A stretch of DNA of 64,000 bases. Source: Crocinitomix algicola. GTDB taxonomy: Bacteria; Bacteroidota; Bacteroidia; Flavobacteriales_D; Crocinitomicaceae. The notes under the pieces are model-generated. The model did no database searches. It was not told the DNA's origin and worked only from the letters and a program-made list of their open reading frames with translations. The DNA is taken from the NCBI RefSeq assembly GCF_001661595.2, contig NZ_LYPF02000010.1:124001-188000 (forward strand). The letters are read 5' to 3'. The position numbers were made by a program, and so were the translations under genes. Shown one piece after another: positions 15,875-24,993 of this stretch. Position 1 is the stretch's first letter; each line of letters opens with the position of its first letter.

Positions 15875-18800
15875 CTAATTCCTTCTAAATCCTCCAACTT
15901 GCTGACCACTTCCTTGTTTATTCTGTTGAATGCCTCCACCAACCGGTTTTGCGACTTGCGCCAATTCATAGGTTATTTTATAGCTTGTTGTTGCGGATAA
16001 ATTACCATTTTTAGCACTAATTCTAACCGAGTTCGCCCCTGCTTTTAAGTCAACCGTGGCAATAAACTCTCCAGTTTGAGCATTATATGTAAATGCTGTC
16101 GATTTTGTTCCATTGACAGTAAAAGTGATATCATTTTTTGCGTTAACGTTGGTCAATTTGGCTTTCACAACATATGTATTCTTTTTTACAGTGGTTGAAG
16201 AACTAGACGGTGCAACTTTTGTTATTACTGGACGTTTTACCGTTTGCTTTACCACCTTATTCTCGGAGCCACCTCCTTTATTACCTTGAGGTAAAGTTAC
16301 CTTCTGCACAACTTTTTTATAAGTAATGGAGTAAGTTAAAGCTGCCTTTTTATCTCCGTTAACAGCATTCACTCGAATCGTATTCTTACCTTCTTTTAAT
16401 CGTAATACAGCAGACATTATTTTTGTTGAAGAACTAAAGGTAAAATTTGTAACATTTACCCCATTCACATTCAATGTCAAACCACTCTTAGAGGCCACAT
16501 TTAGCGCTTTTAGTTTCAGCAAGTAACTCGAATTGTCAGTTGAAGCAACACTTGAACTAGGAGTTATACGTTGTAATTTTGGGGTCAAAGACTGCTGTTT
16601 AATTTGCTGATTTGTACCACCCGGATTACCTACATTTTGCACTTTATTTTGAACAGAAGCTTGATAGGTTATATAATACGTATAATCCACTTTATTACCA
16701 TTATTAGCTTCAATTTTAACTAGGTTTACACCATTTTTTAGTTTTAAGATCGCTGAAAGTTGATTGGTATTTGAACTGTATACAAACGACGCATACTTAC
16801 TGCCGTTTACATACATTGTAATATTAGATTTACTTGAGACATTTTCCACCTTAGCTTTCAAATTGAAGGTTTCTGTTTTCACTGTTGATTTATTACTTGA
16901 AGGCGAAATTGGAGTAATTACCGGAGCAGGTTGAGCTTGAAACATTTTATTGTCACCTGGATCATTCTCATTGTTTTGTTGATTTACCTTATTGCCAACA
17001 GTCCCGCCATTAGGACCTCCAGGCATAATTGGTTGAGAATAAGTGATCATATAAGTTAGTGTTTCAGAGCTACAATCATTGGTTAAGACAAATTGCAAAC
17101 TGTTCATCCCTTTGATGAGTGTTAATCCGCTCAATGTAATTTGATCTCCTGCAAAATCAACATCCACAACCTTCCCATTAAATACAGCCTTAATATTCTC
17201 TTTATCTTTTACATTACTTGTATTCAATACGATATTATATGGACTTACTGCCGTTGAAACACTCAACCTAGCTGGTGTAATTAATGTGTAAGTAATTGGA
17301 AGACAAGGGTTAGTTTCGCCGCAAATTCCATCCCATTTAGGATTTGGAAAATACTCCCCGTAAGGTTCTCCAGCCGCACCTACATTACATCCAGATCTTA
17401 CCCAGACACCGACTATGCAAGCTCCTAAACTCGTCCCAATTGGTTCAAACGAACCTGTAAATTCATCAATATCTTCAACAACCATAGTGGTTCCATTATT
17501 CAAATTAAGAATTACATTGGTAATTTCTTTATTCGATGTTACATCAACATTCTTATGATCATCTGCAAACGATACTGAAATCTCAGGATTACAATCTTCT
17601 TCTTTAACCACATAGGTGATTAAAAAGTCGACCTCAGCAGAACCACAATCATTCGTCAGTACTACTTCAACAGCATTAGTTGGTACAGAAATATATGGAA
17701 CTTCTACAAAAACAGTTCCTGCTGAATAAGTAAAATCAGTTGTTCCACCGTTCACTTTTACTGTAATTTGGTCCTCACTCACATTTCCAACAGCAACCGA
17801 TACAGTGTAGCTATCTCCTTCAACCTCAACACTAGATTCCGTCGGCGCTATAAGAGAATATGTTGGTGCCAAGCATGGTGGATTTAGAATTAATTCAAGT
17901 TCTTCCGAAACGATTTCACAACCGTTTACAGCAATTTGAATTTCATTAGACCCTTCATTTAAAGTCATCGCTGCTTGTAACAGATGTGTTTCACTATTAA
18001 ACTCAAATGGCACAGAAAGACCGTTTAACTTTAACGTTATATCACCGGCATCAGCAACATTAAACAAACTTGCAAAGAATACTAAACTTTCTTCAGTTAA
18101 CTCTGCACCATCCGTTAACCCATTAATAACTATACTTGGTGATTCGCATGGATTATGGTTAATGGAGAAAATTATAGACTCTTTACTACAATCATTTGCA
18201 AAATTAATCATCACATTATTCGACCCTTCAATTAAAGAAAACTCAGGGACATCAATCACTCCTTCACTAAAAATAGCCGAAACTTCTTCGCCGTTAACAA
18301 AGGCCTTTACAGTCTCAGGGTTTACATGACCTGTATTAATTCGAACGGCTGTTGTAGCTTCATCAATATCGCTTGTTAGATTTGTTGGCGAAACCAATGA
18401 ATAAGTTACTGGAACACATGGTTTAGCATAATTCACCTTCAATTTCTTAACTGCTTTTTCACATCCGTTTGCCACCACTTCAATTGTGTTAACACCTTCT
18501 ATTAAAGTGAATGTTGCAGTTAAATTTCTTGTAACGGCATTGAAAGAAAATGGTTTTGAAACCCCATTTACAAAAACTTCGATTTTAGCCGCATTCTCAA
18601 CTTCAGCTACATTAGCCGTAAAGTTATATGTCGAAACTTCAGAACTTATCGGGTTGGCACTCAAATTAATTTTCGGTGCGGTACAATCATCATGTTTGAT
18701 TGTATATTTAATCGTTTCTGAACTGCAATCGTTTGCCAATTCAACCGTGATTATATTTGCTCCATCAACAAGATTAATTCCGTTGATTGATAACAAATTA

Positions 18801-21800
18801 TCAGTGAGTGAAAAATCAATTAAATCACCATCTTTTCGTACTGCAATTCCTTCTTCCGAAACATGTTGAACAAGAAGGCTAATATTATATATTGCTTCTG
18901 CCGAAGAAGTCGAAAGTCCTTCAGGATTAGTCAACGTATAAACAAGAGGCTCGCAAGGAACAGTGTATGTTAGTTCTGTTGACACTTTTACTAATTCACA
19001 ACTATTTGCGATTATTTCTATACTATTTTCTCCTTCCGACAACGTTAATTCAGCATCTATAGCGCCAGTCGATGGATCATATACAAAATCCGCTGGCACC
19101 CCGTTGAATAAAACTTGTATTTGATCAGCACTAACATGTTGAACATTGGCTTCCAAATTAAAATTTGGTGTTGTAATAACAGATGGCATAACGCCCAATG
19201 TAATAACTGGTTCAACACAACCGTCATAGTTAATAGTATAGTTGATTATATCAGAACTACACTCATTTGTAAGTTTCACAACCAATGCATTTACTCCGTC
19301 CACTAAGGCGATGCCTTCAATAGAAATAATTTGAGACTCACTATTATAGACAAACGGATGTATTACTCCATTCAATTTCACTTCAATTTCCTCAGTATTC
19401 TCTATTCCAACCACACTTAACGAAACTGAATAACTTTCTTCCACCGCAGTGATATTTGTACTTGCAGGGATTAATAAACTATGCGAAATAACAGTACAAG
19501 GCACTTCGTAAGTGAGGGAGGCAGATTGATTTATTGTTTCACAACCGTTTGCCGTTACTTCAATCGAATTTGCACCTTCTATTAAAGAAAGATTGGCTGA
19601 TAATAGATGAGAAGCAGGGTTAAAATCAAAATCAATTGCCTCTCCGTTCAGTTTTACAACAATATCATCACCGCTAGAAATATTAGTTACCACGACATTT
19701 AATGCAAAAATATCTTCTGACACTACCTTTCCAGGCCAAATTTCATTGATAATAATTACAGGTGGTTCACATCCATTATAAGTGATATCATATGTTACGA
19801 GAGATTTACTACAATCATTTGTGAGGTGAACTTGAATAGCATTTGCACCATCAACCAAAGTCAAATCATTAATTGTAATATTTCCAGTAATTGGGTCAAA
19901 AGTTACAGGAACAGTAACACCATTATTGGTCACAGAAATTTGTTCAACAGAAGTTAATCCAGTAGCGTTTAAGCTAATATTAATATTTTCTTCTGTAGCC
20001 GTGAAAACATTTAATGAAGGCGTCAATAAATTAGTCACGATAGGTTCACATGGTATTTCTCGTGTAATGTTAATAATACGCTCAGCGCCTCCACATGCAT
20101 TTTCAGCCCTTACTATAATACTATTTAATCCTGTATTAATTGATGCTCCTAAAGTTAAAACACCTGTCGCTTCATTATAGGTAAAAGCTTGAGAAACTCC
20201 ATTTAACAGAACTGATATCTCTTCGGAACTAACCTCTGATACATTTGCAGAGAAAATGATCGATTCTTCATCAACCACAGAACCCGAAACTGGTGACACA
20301 GAAGATATTACTGGTATATCACACACCTCCCTTTGAATGGTAAATATTTTAATTGCCGAGCCACATTCCGTTGTAGCAGTAACAACTACAGAGTTTGACC
20401 CTAAAGAAAGCGGTAATTCATTTAAAATTACAGAACCTGTGCCTGCATCAAAAGCAAAATCTACAATCACACCATTTAATTGTACTACAACTTCATCTTT
20501 TGCTGCTATGTGATTAGAACTTAATGATAAGTTAATTAACTCTTCTTCAGTCGTTATTATTGAAGGTCCAGCGGCTGTCAATGAAGGTTCGTAACATGGA
20601 GCATCTGGAGCATCATAATTCAATGTAAAGGTAGCTTGATTAGTACCACAATCATTCGTAACTATAACTGTAATGGCATTTGAACCTTCTAAAAGCGTAA
20701 CACCTTTTGAAGCAATTGAAGTAGCCGGATTATAACTCATATATCCCTTACTTACACCATTCAATTTAAGTTCGACAATAGTTTCAGCAGAATGATTATT
20801 AATTTGTGCATCAATTGTCACGTTTGGCTCGTCAACTGTTGAATATGGAACTGGAGAAATATACCCTACTGTTGGAATAACACAAGGATTTTCATTCACT
20901 ACGTAATTGATTACTGCAAGATCTTCATCAGCACCATCTCCGTTTTCCACGCTAACCTCAAAAATATTACTTCCTGCAATTAACGATGCATTATAAACAA
21001 TCTGATGTCCGCCTACAAAACTATAAGCAGCATCTGGAATAAGTTCACCATTTTGCTTAAATACTATTTGACTTTTGGCGTCAATATTTGTGGTATTAGC
21101 TGTTACTGTATATGTCGCAGTAGCTGCTAAATAAGGTGAAGTTGATGGGTTTATAAACGCTACGGTTGGTGGTGTAGGATTGACAGGTTTTTCGTATATA
21201 ATGAAACGCGTTTTTGTATCAGATCCAACTGCATTTGTTCCTGTAATTGACACGCTATTCGAACCTTCGTTTAAAACAAGAGGAAGATTTAAAATTTTTG
21301 TGTAAGAATTGTACGTAAAAGAAAGGGTTGGAACACCATTAACATTCACTGTAATATTTGATTCATCCGTGACATTAAGTACTGACGCAACAAGGTTAAC
21401 ATTTGGTGTACCAAACACCATATTATCAATTCCCGGATAGGTGATATTTACAATTGGCGGTGCCTGAGGAATTGTTCTTTTATATATTATTGTGGTAGTC
21501 GCAATATCCGAACCATATCCATTCACACCTTTTACCTCAATAACATTAGATCCCTCTACCAAACTCGTGGTAAAATTCATCAAGTCGGACGATGTACTAT
21601 ACGTAAACAATTCCGTTTCAACCCCATTGATTTTTAATGTTATGTCTTCAGCACTATTCACATATTCTACCTTTGCCGAAACATTATACGATGAAGTATA
21701 AACTGTAATAGGGTTTTCAATTGGATCAGTGAAGTTTACAATAGGAGGACGAGGTGTTTCAGGTTTTGTGTAAATTATGGTTGTTGACGCATAATCAGAA

Positions 21801-23548
21801 CCTGCTGCATTTACTCCTGTAATTTCAACAAAATTAGCTCCCTCAATTAGACTAATATTAAAATAAATTTCTTTTGTAGATGTATTAAATGTATAGGATG
21901 TAACGTCATTTCCATTTAATTTTATTGTCAAATCTTCTTTAGTTGCAACGTGCAAAGCATTTGCTCTAACTCCTAATAACGAAACCGTGGTGTAATGAGG
22001 GTTTTCGCTTGGATTGGTAAATGACACAATAGGCGGTTGAATTTGTGCTGGTTTCTCATAAATAATGTGAACCGTTTTACTGTCACTTCCAGCTTCATTT
22101 GTTGCTGAAACCGTTACAGTATTCGTACCTTCAATAAGATTTAAAGACGCGTTTAATACTTTTGTACTTAAATTATAATTAAACACATTTAGGTTTACCC
22201 CATTTAAATAAATGTCAATTTGGGCTTTAGATTCTACATTAAGCACCGTTGATACCAACCCAAACACATTTGAATTAGTTACATAAGGTGTTGAAGGAGG
22301 ATTAGTAATTGTTACAATTGGAGGATTAATTGGCTCCTCTTCTTCTTTATAAACGATGATTACAGCTTCATAATCTGACCCCGCTTCGTTTGTTCCTGTA
22401 ATTTCAAACAAATTTTGTCCTGGGTGTAATACAACAACACTCTCAAATTTATCGGTAGATGCGTTATAGGAAAAATTGGTATTTAAATTACCATCTTGCT
22501 TAAATGTAATGTTCGACTTATTTTCGACATAATGAACATTTGCTTTTAACCTAAATGTATTTTCAGTCGTTGTATATGGACTAGAACTTGGGTCAAAAAT
22601 ATCTACTATTGGTTTTTTCCTGGTTACAGGTTCATTAACAATGGGATCTTCCTTTTGATCAAAATCATCAATATTCACCGGTTCTTCTACCTCTTCGTCA
22701 TCATAAACACGAGACTTTGGATTGAATAAATGAAATTTTAAAGTAAGTCCAGTATAATGATAGCGATCATTTAAATCAGCTGCAACACCAGCATTGGTAT
22801 TCGGCATTCCATCAAACAAATTTGTTCTTGTCCAAGTTGTTTTATGCTCTATACCTATAGCAACTGCCGGATGAATTTGTTTACTCAGACCCACACCAAA
22901 ACTTGGCATCCAATCAATTTCATACTCTGCAAAATTTCCAACTAAATCTGTTTCATAATCTCCATCTTGAAAATTTAGGACACCATTTTGAGATGCCGAA
23001 CCAAGTGTTTCATAGTTATAAATACCACCTGTCTCTTCATTTAGCATATCGCTAGCTGTATGGTAACCAGTAATTCCAATTCCACCAAAAGCATAAAGAT
23101 TCCAACCTGTTCTTTGTCTCCATCGGTTTGTATTTAATACAAGTTCAATTGATCCTTTTAACAAGTTAGTTTGATAATTTGGAATGAAATAACCGAGTGA
23201 ATCTTGATAAGTTTTCAAAGGAGAATCTTCATAATTCTCCAATCCAACAGTAGAAGTACTATCCAGATTATATCGATTTGTTGCCTGGCCCATGATTTGT
23301 GCATGCAAAAAGCGGGCACGAATATCCCACGAAAACATTTTATTTGGCTCCATGCCATATGATTTTCCAAAAGTTAAACCATACCCTCCTCGAATTCGAT
23401 AGGGGACCTCAGTCTGACTTGTCCATGTTGCTCCTGCATTTAATCCAATGAACCATCTCGAATCACGCTGATAATTGACATTATCTTGAGATGTCCCTTG
23501 AAAAACTGTTAAAAATAGAATTGCAAATAGTGTAAAATATTTTCTCAT
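15875..23548 (-). CDS. Giant surface protein: N-terminal barrel-like domain plus about 23 Ig-like modules
   Basis: A 2557-residue protein. Signal peptide (FTLFAILFLTVFQGTSQ), then about residues 25-285 of aromatic-rich, alternating sequence like a small outer-membrane beta-barrel (WFIGLNAGATW ... YHYTGLTLKFHLF). An acidic linker (DDEEVEEP) follows, then about 23 modules of 80-90 residues. Each has a Pro-rich start, a central NGV/NG turn before an F-x-Y/F strand, and an L-x-EG-x-N strand ending N-x-x-G or N-x-C. The fold is probably Ig-like/bacterial big domain. Three zones exist: modules 1-6 lack Cys, modules 7-20 carry paired Cys, modules 21-23 are Lys-rich and separated by Gly/Gln/Asn linkers. 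No T9SS tail; the end is GGFRRN. Anchoring by the N-terminal barrel with the repeats outside is inferred. Adhesion or cell-surface structure is the likeliest role. Confidence 0.85.
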   Translation of the reverse strand: MRKYFTLFAILFLTVFQGTSQDNVNYQRDSRWFIGLNAGATWTSQTEVPYRIRGGYGLTFGKSYGMEPNKMFSWDIRARFLHAQIMGQATNRYNLDSTSTVGLENYEDSPLKTYQDSLGYFIPNYQTNLLKGSIELVLNTNRWRQRTGWNLYAFGGIGITGYHTASDMLNEETGGIYNYETLGSASQNGVLNFQDGDYETDLVGNFAEYEIDWMPSFGVGLSKQIHPAVAIGIEHKTTWTRTNLFDGMPNTNAGVAADLNDRYHYTGLTLKFHLFNPKSRVYDDEEVEEPVNIDDFDQKEDPIVNEPVTRKKPIVDIFDPSSSPYTTTENTFRLKANVHYVENKSNITFKQDGNLNTNFSYNASTDKFESVVVLHPGQNLFEITGTNEAGSDYEAVIIVYKEEEEPINPPIVTITNPPSTPYVTNSNVFGLVSTVLNVESKAQIDIYLNGVNLNVFNYNLSTKVLNASLNLIEGTNTVTVSATNEAGSDSKTVHIIYEKPAQIQPPIVSFTNPSENPHYTTVSLLGVRANALHVATKEDLTIKLNGNDVTSYTFNTSTKEIYFNISLIEGANFVEITGVNAAGSDYASTTIIYTKPETPRPPIVNFTDPIENPITVYTSSYNVSAKVEYVNSAEDITLKINGVETELFTYSTSSDLMNFTTSLVEGSNVIEVKGVNGYGSDIATTTIIYKRTIPQAPPIVNITYPGIDNMVFGTPNVNLVASVLNVTDESNITVNVNGVPTLSFTYNSYTKILNLPLVLNEGSNSVSITGTNAVGSDTKTRFIIYEKPVNPTPPTVAFINPSTSPYLAATATYTVTANTTNIDAKSQIVFKQNGELIPDAAYSFVGGHQIVYNASLIAGSNIFEVSVENGDGADEDLAVINYVVNENPCVIPTVGYISPVPYSTVDEPNVTIDAQINNHSAETIVELKLNGVSKGYMSYNPATSIASKGVTLLEGSNAITVIVTNDCGTNQATFTLNYDAPDAPCYEPSLTAAGPSIITTEEELINLSLSSNHIAAKDEVVVQLNGVIVDFAFDAGTGSVILNELPLSLGSNSVVVTATTECGSAIKIFTIQREVCDIPVISSVSPVSGSVVDEESIIFSANVSEVSSEEISVLLNGVSQAFTYNEATGVLTLGASINTGLNSIIVRAENACGGAERIINITREIPCEPIVTNLLTPSLNVFTATEENINISLNATGLTSVEQISVTNNGVTVPVTFDPITGNITINDLTLVDGANAIQVHLTNDCSKSLVTYDITYNGCEPPVIIINEIWPGKVVSEDIFALNVVVTNISSGDDIVVKLNGEAIDFDFNPASHLLSANLSLIEGANSIEVTANGCETINQSASLTYEVPCTVISHSLLIPASTNITAVEESYSVSLSVVGIENTEEIEVKLNGVIHPFVYNSESQIISIEGIALVDGVNALVVKLTNECSSDIINYTINYDGCVEPVITLGVMPSVITTPNFNLEANVQHVSADQIQVLFNGVPADFVYDPSTGAIDAELTLSEGENSIEIIANSCELVKVSTELTYTVPCEPLVYTLTNPEGLSTSSAEAIYNISLLVQHVSEEGIAVRKDGDLIDFSLTDNLLSINGINLVDGANIITVELANDCSSETIKYTIKHDDCTAPKINLSANPISSEVSTYNFTANVAEVENAAKIEVFVNGVSKPFSFNAVTRNLTATFTLIEGVNTIEVVANGCEKAVKKLKVNYAKPCVPVTYSLVSPTNLTSDIDEATTAVRINTGHVNPETVKAFVNGEEVSAIFSEGVIDVPEFSLIEGSNNVMINFANDCSKESIIFSINHNPCESPSIVINGLTDGAELTEESLVFFASLFNVADAGDITLKLNGLSVPFEFNSETHLLQAAMTLNEGSNEIQIAVNGCEIVSEELELILNPPCLAPTYSLIAPTESSVEVEGDSYTVSVAVGNVSEDQITVKVNGGTTDFTYSAGTVFVEVPYISVPTNAVEVVLTNDCGSAEVDFLITYVVKEEDCNPEISVSFADDHKNVDVTSNKEITNVILNLNNGTTMVVEDIDEFTGSFEPIGTSLGACIVGVWVRSGCNVGAAGEPYGEYFPNPKWDGICGETNPCLPITYTLITPARLSVSTAVSPYNIVLNTSNVKDKENIKAVFNGKVVDVDFAGDQITLSGLTLIKGMNSLQFVLTNDCSSETLTYMITYSQPIMPGGPNGGTVGNKVNQQNNENDPGDNKMFQAQPAPVITPISPSSNKSTVKTETFNLKAKVENVSSKSNITMYVNGSKYASFVYSSNTNQLSAILKLKNGVNLVKIEANNGNKVDYTYYITYQASVQNKVQNVGNPGGTNQQIKQQSLTPKLQRITPSSSVASTDNSSYLLKLKALNVASKSGLTLNVNGVNVTNFTFSSSTKIMSAVLRLKEGKNTIRVNAVNGDKKAALTYSITYKKVVQKVTLPQGNKGGGSENKVVKQTVKRPVITKVAPSSSSTTVKKNTYVVKAKLTNVNAKNDITFTVNGTKSTAFTYNAQTGEFIATVDLKAGANSVRISAKNGNLSATTSYKITYELAQVAKPVGGGIQQNKQGSGQQVGGFRRN
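15945..16930 (-). repeat. Zone 3 of the giant protein: three basic Ig-like modules
   Basis: Modules 21-23 (about residues 2205-2535) share the starts PVITPISPSS, PKLQRITPSS and PVITKVAPSS, have no cysteines and many Lys, and are separated by Gly/Gln/Asn/Val-rich linkers such as GGTNQQIKQQ. Their end motif is NGN/NGD instead of N-x-C. The zone differs in charge from zones 1 and 2. Confidence 0.75.
17040..20890 (-). repeat. Zone 2 of the giant protein: alternating Cys-bearing module pairs
   Basis: Modules 7-20 (about residues 886-2170). From module 10 onward two types alternate. Type A starts C-x-P and ends TNDCS/ANDCS plus a Y-x-I-x-Y strand. Type B ends ANGCE/ANSCE plus a Leu-rich strand. 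Each module has one Cys at its start and one near its end, well placed for an intra- or inter-module disulfide. The pairwise order A-B-A-B indicates duplication of two-module units. Module 19 (about 17330-17560 on the plus scale) is divergent, longer and has extra Cys (GVWVRSGC). Confidence 0.75.
20890..22620 (-). repeat. Zone 1 of the giant protein: six Cys-free Ig-like modules
   Basis: Modules 1-6 (about residues 310-885) begin PPIV or similar (PPIVTITNP, PPIVSFTNP, PPIVNFTDP) and end with N-x-x-GSD, where zone 2 has N-x-C. This GSD turn resembles a carbohydrate-associated Ig module or an Asp-x-Asp-type Ca site, but no cation site can be proved by eye. Confidence 0.75.
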
Positions 23549-23892: not shown

Positions 23893-24078
23893 CTACAATG
23901 GAAAGCCCGTTAAAGCGGCCAAAAAAACGGCTGCTATTGTCCAAGGACGATGCTTTGAAGTATACGTATTTCGTTTGGAAGTATTATGTGAGTTAAACCG
24001 AGATTTCCAATCATTTGTACTACCGACATAGTACTTATCCCGCTTTGATGAATATAATATGTAAACAAAATATGGCAT
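23893..24078 (-). pseudogene. Truncated GIY-YIG nuclease copy
   Basis: Residues 1-52 match the intact copy at 24191-24499 almost exactly (MPYFVYILYSSK, YYVGSTNDWKSR), then the frame departs into LAALTGFPL and stops. The part lost contains the acidic KAEQIEKF segment expected to hold the catalytic Glu, so it should be inactive. At DNA level 23923-24126 and 24344-24548 differ at only about eight positions, so the duplication is recent. Loss of similarity is abrupt, after GCAGCCGTTTTT on the minus strand, which points to a deletion or recombination endpoint and not a frameshift. Confidence 0.75.
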
Positions 24079-24126: not shown

Positions 24127-24225
24127 TTCCGAAGGCAATTTAAATCGTAAACGATAAAATTTGTCGGAACTCGAACCAAGGACCCTCTGATTAATCCCGT
24201 AGGTACGAGACTCTAACCAATTCGG
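24127..24225 (-). pseudogene. Disrupted tRNA-Asn-like sequence with two palindromic inserts
   Basis: Read on the minus strand, D-arm remnant AATTGGTTAGAG is followed by a 16-nt palindrome (24195-24210, one mismatch), then TTAATCAGAGGGTC and the T-arm CTTGGTTCGAG, then a 43-nt hairpin (24127-24169: TTCCGA...TCGGAA arms with an inner ATCGT/ACGAT stem), then GGAGCAAAATAAACCCC as after the real tRNA. The anticodon stem and loop are replaced by the palindrome. It cannot be a functional tRNA. The intact GIY-YIG gene ends inside it. Confidence 0.75.
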
Positions 24226-24499
24226 ATAAATAACCCGTTGGACAAAATTCAACATCTATTAACCGTTCAATTAACTTTCGACTCTTTTGTTTTTTAATAA
24301 ATTTTTCAATTTGCTCGGCTTTGGATCGTGTGTCACCTGCCTTAAAAACGGCTGCTATTGTCCAAGGACGATGCTTTGAAGTATACGTATTTCGTTTGGA
24401 GGTATTATGCGAGTGTAACCGAGATTTCCAATCATTTGTACTACCCACATAGTACTTATCCGACTTTGATGAATATAATATGTAAACAAAATATGGCAT
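24191..24499 (-). CDS. GIY-YIG nuclease family protein with tRNA-derived C-terminus
   Basis: A 102-residue single-domain GIY-YIG nuclease. The two-strand motif appears as VYIL ... YYVGST, followed by the conserved Arg (WKSRLHSH) and the Glu-bearing helix KAEQIEKFIKKQ. Such small proteins act on DNA or are of unknown target in Bacteroidota. The last 13 or so residues (YLSELVRVSYLRD) are translated from the tRNA-like unit: the LVRVSYLRD codons are the tRNA D-arm plus the palindrome, and the TAA is the tRNA's own TTAATC. It lies directly downstream of the tRNA-Asn terminator. A role in mobilising or duplicating this cassette is inference. Confidence 0.85.
   Translation of the reverse strand: MPYFVYILYSSKSDKYYVGSTNDWKSRLHSHNTSKRNTYTSKHRPWTIAAVFKAGDTRSKAEQIEKFIKKQKSRKLIERLIDVEFCPTGYLSELVRVSYLRD
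24195..24210. repeat. 16-nt palindrome copy 1 (one mismatch)
   Basis: TCCCGTAGGTACGAGA, a variant of the perfect TCCCGTAGGTACGGGA found in the tandem array. It replaces the anticodon arm of the tRNA-Asn-like pseudo-copy. Confidence 0.8.
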
Positions 24500-24507
24500 A
24501 CTAAAAA

Positions 24508-24537
24508 AACCCCAATAGTCAACGACTAATGGGGTTT
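24508..24537 (-). terminator. Terminator of tRNA-Asn
   Basis: On the minus strand AACCCCATTAGTC-GTT-GACTATTGGGGTT has an 11-bp CCCC-anchored stem with one mismatch, followed by a T run, starting 7 bases past the tRNA 3' end. Confidence 0.85.
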
Positions 24538-24543
24538 ATTTTG

Positions 24544-24617
24544 CTCCTCCTCTTGGGCTCGAACCAAGGACCCTCTGATTAACAGTCAGATGCTCTAACC
24601 AACTGAGCTAAGGAGGA
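24544..24617 (-). tRNA. tRNA-Asn (anticodon GTT)
   Basis: A complete 74-nt cloverleaf on the minus strand: acceptor TCCTCCT/AGGAGGA with discriminator G, D-arm GCTC/GAGC with AGTTGGTTA loop, anticodon arm TCTGA-CTGTTAA-TCAGA giving GTT, short variable loop, T-arm CTTGG-TTCGAGC-CCAAG. CCA is not encoded. It is followed by a terminator and the GIY-YIG gene and preceded by three truncated copies of its own 5' half. Confidence 0.96.
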
Positions 24618-24860
24618 ATTTATTTCCTGTATTTAAACCTCTTTTGACCCTCTGATTAATCCCGTAGGTACGGGACTCTAACCAACTGAGCTAAGGAGGA
24701 ATTTATTTCCTGTATTTAAACCTCTTTTGACCCTCTGATTAATCCCGTAGGTACGGGACTCTAACCAACTGAGCTAAGGAGGAATTTATTTCCTGTATTT
24801 AAACCTCTTTTTGACCCTCTGATTAATCCCGTAGGTACGGGGCTCTAACCAACAGGGAAT
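24618..24860 (-). repeat. Tandem array of three truncated tRNA-Asn units carrying the 16-nt palindrome
   Basis: Upstream of the intact tRNA on the minus strand are three units about 83-84 bases apart. Two hold the leader AAAGAGGTTTAAATACAGG... and the tRNA 5' half (TCCTCCTTAGCTCAGTTGG); in all three the palindrome TCCCGTACCTACGGGA and the 3' anticodon-arm remnant TTAATCAGAGGGTC follow, and the T-arm is missing. Palindromes are at 24660-24675, 24743-24758 and 24827-24842 (the last with one changed base). The outermost unit has a damaged D-arm (CCCTGTTGGTTAGAG). No spacer-like variation, so not CRISPR. Function unknown. Confidence 0.85.
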
Positions 24861-24993
24861 TGGTTTATTTTTTTGCTAATATTCTTTCTAAGCGTAGAAA
24901 AATTTTTAACAAGAAGTTTTCAATACTGCTATAAAAAAACCGTTGTTTTTCCTTAAGCGAGGGCAAATATAAACAAATTAAATCTAAGCAAAC

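Follow-up and report, generated by a model that had tools for sequence, protein, structure and literature searches.

Palindrome-marked remnants of tRNA genes around a GIY-YIG nuclease gene in Crocinitomix algicola and their recurrence in Bacteroidota

Why should a bacterial chromosome carry, directly in front of an intact tRNA-Asn gene, three broken copies of that gene, each with a palindrome at the place of one strand of the anticodon arm? The question is raised by a 64,000-nucleotide stretch of the Crocinitomix algicola genome (3.72 Mb in 44 contigs), G000:C2:124001-188000, which is referred to here as the window. The features of the locus are listed below in the order in which the minus strand is read.

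24964-24992, minus strand: putative tRNA promoter, TTG-N18-TATATTTG, read from the sequence, upstream of the entire array
24784-24860, minus strand: unit 1, partial tRNA-Asn 5' part, CCCCGTACCTACGGGA (24827-24842), nt 36-49, leader-like tail
24701-24783, minus strand: unit 2, tRNA nt 1-25, palindrome (24743-24758), nt 36-49, leader-like tail
24618-24700, minus strand: unit 3, tRNA nt 1-25, palindrome (24660-24675), nt 36-49, leader-like tail
24543-24617, minus strand: intact tRNA-Asn(GTT)
24503-24536, minus strand: terminator-like hairpin and T run, read from the sequence, between the tRNA and the nuclease ORF
24191-24499, minus strand: GIY-YIG nuclease ORF of 102 aa (Pfam PF01541, E=1.1e-16), whose last codons are a tRNA remnant
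24170-24220, minus strand: downstream tRNA-Asn remnant, nt 16-25, palindrome TCTCGTACCTACGGGA (24195-24210), nt 36-60
23911-24078, minus strand: second GIY-YIG ORF copy, truncated, with 89% identity over 56 aa

Tandem Repeats Finder places a repeat of period 83, with 3.1 copies and 98% matches, at 24593-24853, and the three units of 83-84 bp stand directly upstream of the tRNA-Asn gene, so that the coordinates and anatomy given by the earlier sequence-only reading were correct. Two units, as it had claimed, keep the tRNA 5' part: units 2 and 3 hold tRNA nt 1-25 and next the palindrome, which replaces nt 26-35 (CATCTGACTG) and thus the 5' anticodon strand, then nt 36-49 (TTAATCAGAGGGTC) and a leader-like tail, without a T arm. 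The 5' part of unit 1 is shorter and differs from that of the other two, and its palindrome has one mismatch. Read on the minus strand, TCCCGTACCTACGGGA occurs exactly at 24660-24675 and 24743-24758 and with one mismatch at 24827-24842 and 24195-24210; with up to three mismatches allowed, its 16-mers give eight matches in the window (four places, both strands) against 0.04 expected in shuffles. Three items were added to that reading: the truncated GIY-YIG copy, the tRNA-Gly units described below, and the fourth palindrome, TCTCGTACCTACGGGA, which lies inside the tRNA-Asn remnant that encodes the end of the GIY-YIG ORF and replaces the same ten bases as in the array units. After this downstream remnant a second copy of the terminator can be read in the window sequence.

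The array sits between tRNA-Asn and the TTG-N18-TATATTTG element, which we take to be promoter-like by its consensus, and thus inside the presumed transcript. Interpretation of the units as terminators or attenuators was rejected, as the palindrome is followed by TTAATCAGAGGG with no T run; a CRISPR or integron array was rejected as well, since the units repeat whole, with 98% matches and nothing variable between them. Beside the locus, at 15875-23548 of the window on the minus strand, lies a gene for a repetitive protein of 2557 aa with only a sub-threshold Pfam match.

The genome of C. algicola contains a further array. On another contig, which gave no GIY-YIG match, two tandem 97-bp units stand upstream of tRNA-Gly, and in them TCCCGTACATACGGGA replaces the D loop; where the 5' anticodon strand should be, the same units have GCCATATAAATGGC, a palindrome with a different sequence. 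A further GIY-YIG gene of C. algicola is located about 70 nt after tRNA-Met, without a visible tRNA remnant. A tRNA-Leu 3'-end remnant was also seen at about 1998-2045 of L005 (G000:C7), some 130-175 nt downstream of tRNA-Leu, with its T arm replaced by a longer CGGGA..TCCCG inverted repeat.

The nuclease neighbourhood proved to recur. Assignment of the window ORF to the GIY-YIG family is based on the domain match and on residues conserved in 59 relatives, Y4 (54/59), Y15 (56/59), G17 (56/59), R25 (57/59) and E63 (58/59), which we presume to be catalytic; we take the ORF to be of URI type. Relatives were taken from the best 80 of 114 matches in a named-species collection, mostly Bacteroidota, and from further genomes, which gave 145 distinct domains, 17 of them with fewer than 300 nt available upstream. 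For 86 of the 145 an intact tRNA stands on the same strand no more than 400 nt ahead of the domain (68 Asn, 6 Asp, 5 Ala, 2 Leu and 5 others), and an antisense tRNA is near none of the 145. In 84 pairs of tRNA and nuclease the sequence was long enough to look for a colinear repeat of that tRNA where the nuclease gene ends or beyond (two more were too short); the search succeeded in 71 (71 rows, 67 loci) and failed in 13, against 1/84 with the reversed tRNA as control. A TCCCG..CGGGA-type palindrome was found in or just after the downstream copy in 64 of the 71 rows (60 loci), the remaining seven being without one of standard form, although the window (L149) and L051 show a decayed one by eye. 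The nuclease gene is thus flanked by an intact tRNA upstream and a palindrome-marked copy downstream, and many protein tails such as ..LAQLVRVPHVRD (L042-L118) are translated tRNA-Asn remnant and palindrome, which gene annotations may retain as if they were protein.

Palindromic 5' copies were found also upstream of 28 of 105 tRNAs (Asn, Asp, Gly, Ala, Arg), two or more of them at 13 of the 105, with none in the reversed upstream control; the tRNA-Gly array of the window genome falls outside the 28 because the scan keys on the D-loop stretch that is replaced there. Downstream copies mostly share the tRNA 3' half and upstream copies the 5' half. The commonest replacement at tRNA-Asn loci covers exactly nt 26-35 (35 rows, a few loci being counted twice); at Ala, Asp, Phe, Pro and Gly loci the palindrome has taken the place of the anticodon arm or of a portion of the D or T arm. 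Altogether 70 palindromic replacements represent 29 classes of tRNA and position (Asn, Ala, Asp, Gly, Phe, Pro). As most loci were fetched via the nuclease and three (L315, L327, L328) via palindromes, these fractions describe recurrence and are not population frequencies.

When 392 Bacteroidota genomes were searched for the Asn site with up to two mismatches, ten contained it (reversed control 0), including all five genomes with the strongest nuclease matches (above 80 bits). The other five of the ten, G490, G492, G578, G494 and G243, are without a strong match to the window nuclease: G490 and G492 have a weaker copy near the Asn site, the copy of G578 is located on another contig, a frame-broken copy detected by HMM is all that G494 has, and in G243 none was found. 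A tRNA-Arg array in G289 likewise has no nuclease nearby, and because of this array and the tRNA-Gly array of the window genome, the nuclease cannot be required in cis. The locus is therefore neither unique nor lacking counterparts beside tRNA genes of relatives, two of the findings which the sequence-only reading had set as speaking against itself. An origin from phage was rejected, as viral_contigs gave no match to the exact Asn site; 32 viral relatives of the nuclease were found.

The history of the array was examined in congeners. The tRNA-Asn locus was readable in six of eight, in each case after the same SSB-like gene and TATATTTG element. At this syntenic tRNA-Asn the array is absent in G097, G060, G031, G011 and G047; no nuclease follows in the four array-free congeners with downstream sequence (the G011 contig stops there with the tRNA), a truncated nuclease without an array is present in G081, and none of the six readable loci holds a TCCCG..CGGGA palindrome. 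Hence, because the readable congener loci lack the array, it would have been gained, or lost elsewhere, within the genus. Of the 28 rows with upstream copies, 20 have a strict TTG..TAnn(n)TTG element no more than 220 nt before the first copy and one has it within the copies, both counts being without a shuffled control. In the nuclease tree, which is built on few columns and has many open forks, host families are mixed: a Flavihumibacter row belongs to a 98/87 clade with three Sphingobacteriaceae rows, and a Flavobacteriaceae row lies inside a 98/84 clade of nine, mostly Sphingobacteriaceae.

Such a distribution could be expected of a homing cassette, in which the nuclease would cut tRNA genes in cassette-free genomes, the marked tRNA copies would serve as homology arms, repair against the donor would copy the nuclease between two tRNA copies, and the conserved tRNA sequence would let the cassette cross species. 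The mixed host families and the patchy presence of the locus within one genus agree with this, as do the position of the neighbouring tRNA, always upstream and on the same strand (86/145, none antisense), and the prevailing 3' half in downstream and 5' half in upstream copies. However, homing across species should often leave two versions of the tRNA, and the downstream 3' half mostly equals the local intact tRNA when compared by eye. Moreover, there is no tRNA region common to the replaced segments, and the palindrome therefore does not simply mark a target site that was destroyed; its role as protection of a homing target was rejected on the same ground. We regard homing as an unlikely account of these loci.

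The palindrome itself shows what has been maintained. In 44 distinct 16-mers from Asn sites the outer five bases, TCCCG/CGGGA, hardly vary; the bases are complementary at pair 6/11 in 40 of 44, against 14.7 expected under independent columns, at pair 7/10 in 39 of 44 against 22.6 expected, and at the centre pair 8/9 in 11 of 44 against 11.8 expected. Single-step intermediates occur, C/A at 6/11 in two and T/G at 7/10 in three of these 16-mers. A DNA palindrome or a symmetric protein site suits an arm of seven bases around a free centre of two; as RNA, a hairpin would leave positions 7-10 unpaired, and both folding models give the 16-mer six pairs closed by a loop of four bases. In L330 (G492) and L337 (G578) the Asn site reads TCCGGC..GCCGGA in place of TCCCG..CGGGA, so the outer bases are changeable too.

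These pairings bear on the proposal that the units act as RNA, i.e. that they are transcribed in the tRNA leader and yield hairpin-bearing truncated tRNAs serving as decoys or as regulators of tRNA-Asn. Location of the arrays between a promoter-like element and the tRNA is consistent with it, only 8 of 200 shuffles fold as well as the unit (z -2.1), and the 5' part of the upstream copies is nearly identical to the intact tRNA. Nevertheless, a loop of 2 nt cannot be closed in an RNA hairpin and yet pair 7/10 is conserved, the copies vary in the arms and halves retained, and the array is missing in six congeners. The free centre and the pairing at 7/10 thus favour a role of DNA rather than RNA, and the tRNA-half decoys suggested from the sequence alone find little support, because the surviving tRNA half adjoins shared flanking sequence, as copying would give. 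A functional RNA is in our opinion very improbable.

The palindrome is by no means limited to tRNA genes. The window genome has only 13 matches to TCCCGN4-12CGGGA (reversed control 3), but G556 contains 64 copies of TCCCGANNNNTCGGGA (reversed control 0). The number of palindrome matches per genome has a median of 31 in 129 genomes with a close nuclease (reversed control 2) and of 15 in 212 genomes without one (control 5), and the excess persists within families (0/2000 permutations; 341 of 392 genomes counted), to which ancestry shared below family level could contribute. The inner class of the palindrome (A versus C/T at position 6) requires seven changes on the nuclease tree for the 46 of 67 rows that were labelled, and none of 500 shuffles had as few (mean 14.4, minimum 10). 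In Sphingobacteriaceae alone the class follows the nuclease clade (5/5 versus 1/5, Fisher p 0.048). A strict rule by which one nuclease fixes one palindrome sequence is refuted by L044, L050 and L061, in which upstream and downstream palindromes differ within one locus; in G490 and G494 most of the dispersed palindromes listed differ in class from the tRNA-Asn one.

An alternative is that the arrays are passive debris, in which an unrelated route of REP type, e.g. a Y1/RAYT transposase, moves palindromes into duplicated tRNAs and the nuclease is a bystander which also likes tRNA flanks. Arrays without a nuclease (tRNA-Gly here, tRNA-Arg in G289) agree with this; the window genome has two Y1_Tnp genes, and Bacteroidetes own a TnpA-REP subclass, 2.6, with atypical flanking structures according to PMC6006769. 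Against it, no TCCCG..CGGGA palindrome lies within about 1.5 kb of either Y1_Tnp gene, i.e. in either 3.2-kb locus of the window genome, the only genome to which this comparison applies, and RAYT was rejected as the mobiliser for that reason. Palindrome class furthermore tracks the nuclease tree and palindrome number tracks nuclease presence within families, although shared ancestry could explain both. Passive debris appears to us to be just as unlikely as homing.

A preference for hairpins as sites is suggested by the surroundings of the palindromes. In genus g11, which belongs to the family of the window and has its dispersed palindromes mostly in terminator loops, 14 of 19 fetched palindrome loci lie between the arms of a strong outer stem, with duplex energies of -9.8 or lower that are each among the best 5% of 200 random placements at the same locus; those without are L024, L027, L041 and the tRNA-Cys unit (L021 and L028, the same unit sequence). 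One orthologous terminator of this genus is particularly instructive. Its loop is TCCCGTACATACGGGA in G111 and G096, and TCCCGAAAATTCGGGA inside CACTT..CTCAGTG in G010; G104 reads CACTT-CGACTACG-CTCAGTG without a palindrome, G059, G046 and G132 also have none there, and four further matching genomes were unreadable. Because these orthologous terminators differ, the palindrome replaces the tip of a hairpin and is present or absent at one and the same site. Inside tRNAs the nesting test, performed on the 29 classes, is weak but points the same way (mean percentile 0.38, p=0.04), with 12 classes at or under 0.25 and five, at or above 0.83, as clear exceptions. In 40 stretches from G556, G464 and G398 the palindrome could be lengthened with perfect pairing by 0 or 1 bp at 44 of 44 places, and the outer stem went beyond the 5% null at 8 of 44 dispersed palindromes. 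With these 8 of 44 and the modest support in tRNAs, hairpin-loop insertion as a universal rule was rejected. Nesting in G464 was read by eye only, as CGTCATTCTGA-palindrome-GAAGAATCTC. In L309, L310 and L311 of this genome the palindrome TCCCGAGCATTCGGGA, or a near form, stands between GTCATTCTGA and GAAGAATCT, flanks which presumably represent a known dispersed repeat with its loop replaced.

The explanation that we prefer, with confidence slightly below even, is that a REP-like, hairpin-nesting palindrome settled in spare copies of the tRNA which a SegB-like, tRNA-linked nuclease had probably produced. The units would then be dead tandem copies of the tRNA-Asn gene, and the 16-bp palindrome, TCCCG-NN-nn-NN-CGGGA, a dispersed element of Bacteroidota that tends to sit inside tRNA arms and terminator loops. 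Local duplication around the free-standing, tRNA-linked GIY-YIG gene would supply the spare copies, since two tRNA copies flank that gene and a nearby break can therefore duplicate or delete the segment by recombination; the palindrome would occupy them, selection would protect one intact tRNA, and unequal exchange would keep the surviving half of the dead copies identical to the intact gene. That the nuclease drives the duplication is what we infer from this arrangement, and it may also be the nuclease, rather than another enzyme, that moves or cuts the palindrome. Counting against this explanation are the arrays with no nuclease nearby, the Asn sites in genomes without a strong nuclease match, the palindromes in genomes that have no close nuclease, the class differences in G490 and G494, the modest nesting within tRNAs and in the three other genomes, and the seven downstream copies lacking a palindrome of standard form. 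Of the three possibilities raised by the sequence-only reading, a mobile palindrome aimed at tRNAs fits best, with the amendment that its targets are wider than tRNA, as the same palindromes occur in terminator loops, elsewhere between genes or inside other repeats; debris of repeated insertion and recombination holds in part, because the units look like homogenised duplicates.

The closest parallel for the duplicating part comes from phages. SegB of T4 and T6 is a free-standing GIY-YIG homing endonuclease encoded beside phage tRNA genes, and in T6 it drives tandem amplification of tRNA-Tyr (PMC13096335). Judged by anatomy alone, the window locus has the same layout: a GIY-YIG gene adjoins a tRNA gene, the 3' end of the nuclease gene is tRNA-like, and a tRNA segment is repeated in tandem. 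The SegB locus differs in being of phage and in having a full-length tRNA in its amplified segment, whereas the present one is chromosomal, and palindromes are not mentioned in the main text of that paper. The locus might thus work like a SegB-type cassette joined with a REP-type palindrome, the likeness to SegB being one of gene arrangement.

As to the palindrome, REP/RAYT elements and the CGTC-tagged REPs of Bacteroidetes, which are said to lack a dedicated transposase (Di Nocera 2013, PMC3733652), are likewise short dispersed palindromes, for which the available part of that paper gives no tRNA or GIY-YIG association. Unlike the CGTC REPs, palindromes of the window type have a 2-nt centre and no CGTC tag at tRNA-Asn sites; neither GTAG nor CGTC is found there, the sites reading GGTTAGAG-palindrome-TTAATC. 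A literature search gave no description of a palindrome-marked tRNA/GIY-YIG locus. Palindromic selfish elements in or next to genes are represented by the RPE of Rickettsia and by mitochondrial palindromes near tRNA genes, which are longer elements or belong to other genomes, and we know of no arrays of broken tRNA copies among them. The rtT repeats of E. coli tyrT are tandem repeats with a tRNA fragment next to a tRNA gene; to our knowledge, they have no palindrome that replaces tRNA arms and no nuclease.

The locus joins dispersed palindromes without a known transposase, free-standing GIY-YIG nucleases and duplicated tRNA genes, subjects treated apart in the literature available to us, and its recurrence across Bacteroidota points to overlooked selfish or recombination-driven DNA around tRNA genes. 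Pedobacter and other culturable bacteria make it open to experiment. Action of the nuclease on the palindrome, if true, would provide orphan palindromic repeats with an enzyme; if the nuclease drives tRNA duplication, the idea of SegB amplification would extend from phages to bacterial chromosomes. A bolder proposal, which we hold to be rather doubtful, is that the mobilisers missing so far for orphan Bacteroidota palindromes are the tRNA-linked GIY-YIG nucleases; in this class of mobile elements a hairpin would replace the loop of another hairpin, duplicated tRNAs would be the nursery and the inner dinucleotide would co-evolve with the nuclease clade. For annotators there is a warning that the C-terminal tails of many small GIY-YIG proteins are translated tRNA remnants.

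Some minor observations should be added. Relatives of the nuclease appear in records named Thioalkalivibrio, Desulfobacterales, Desulfobacteraceae and Chlorobiota (L056, L105, L106, L055, L087), which may reflect transfer or misbinned MAG contigs. GIY-YIG genes stand in tandem, about 315-370 bp apart, in L331 (G492:C1:2944800-2948000), G251:C34 and G434:C1, and G492 has five identical TCCCGACTAGTCGGGA palindromes after tRNA-Asp in 315-bp steps. In L075, L083 and L095 three to five intact tandem tRNA-Asn genes precede the nuclease gene, as amplification would leave.
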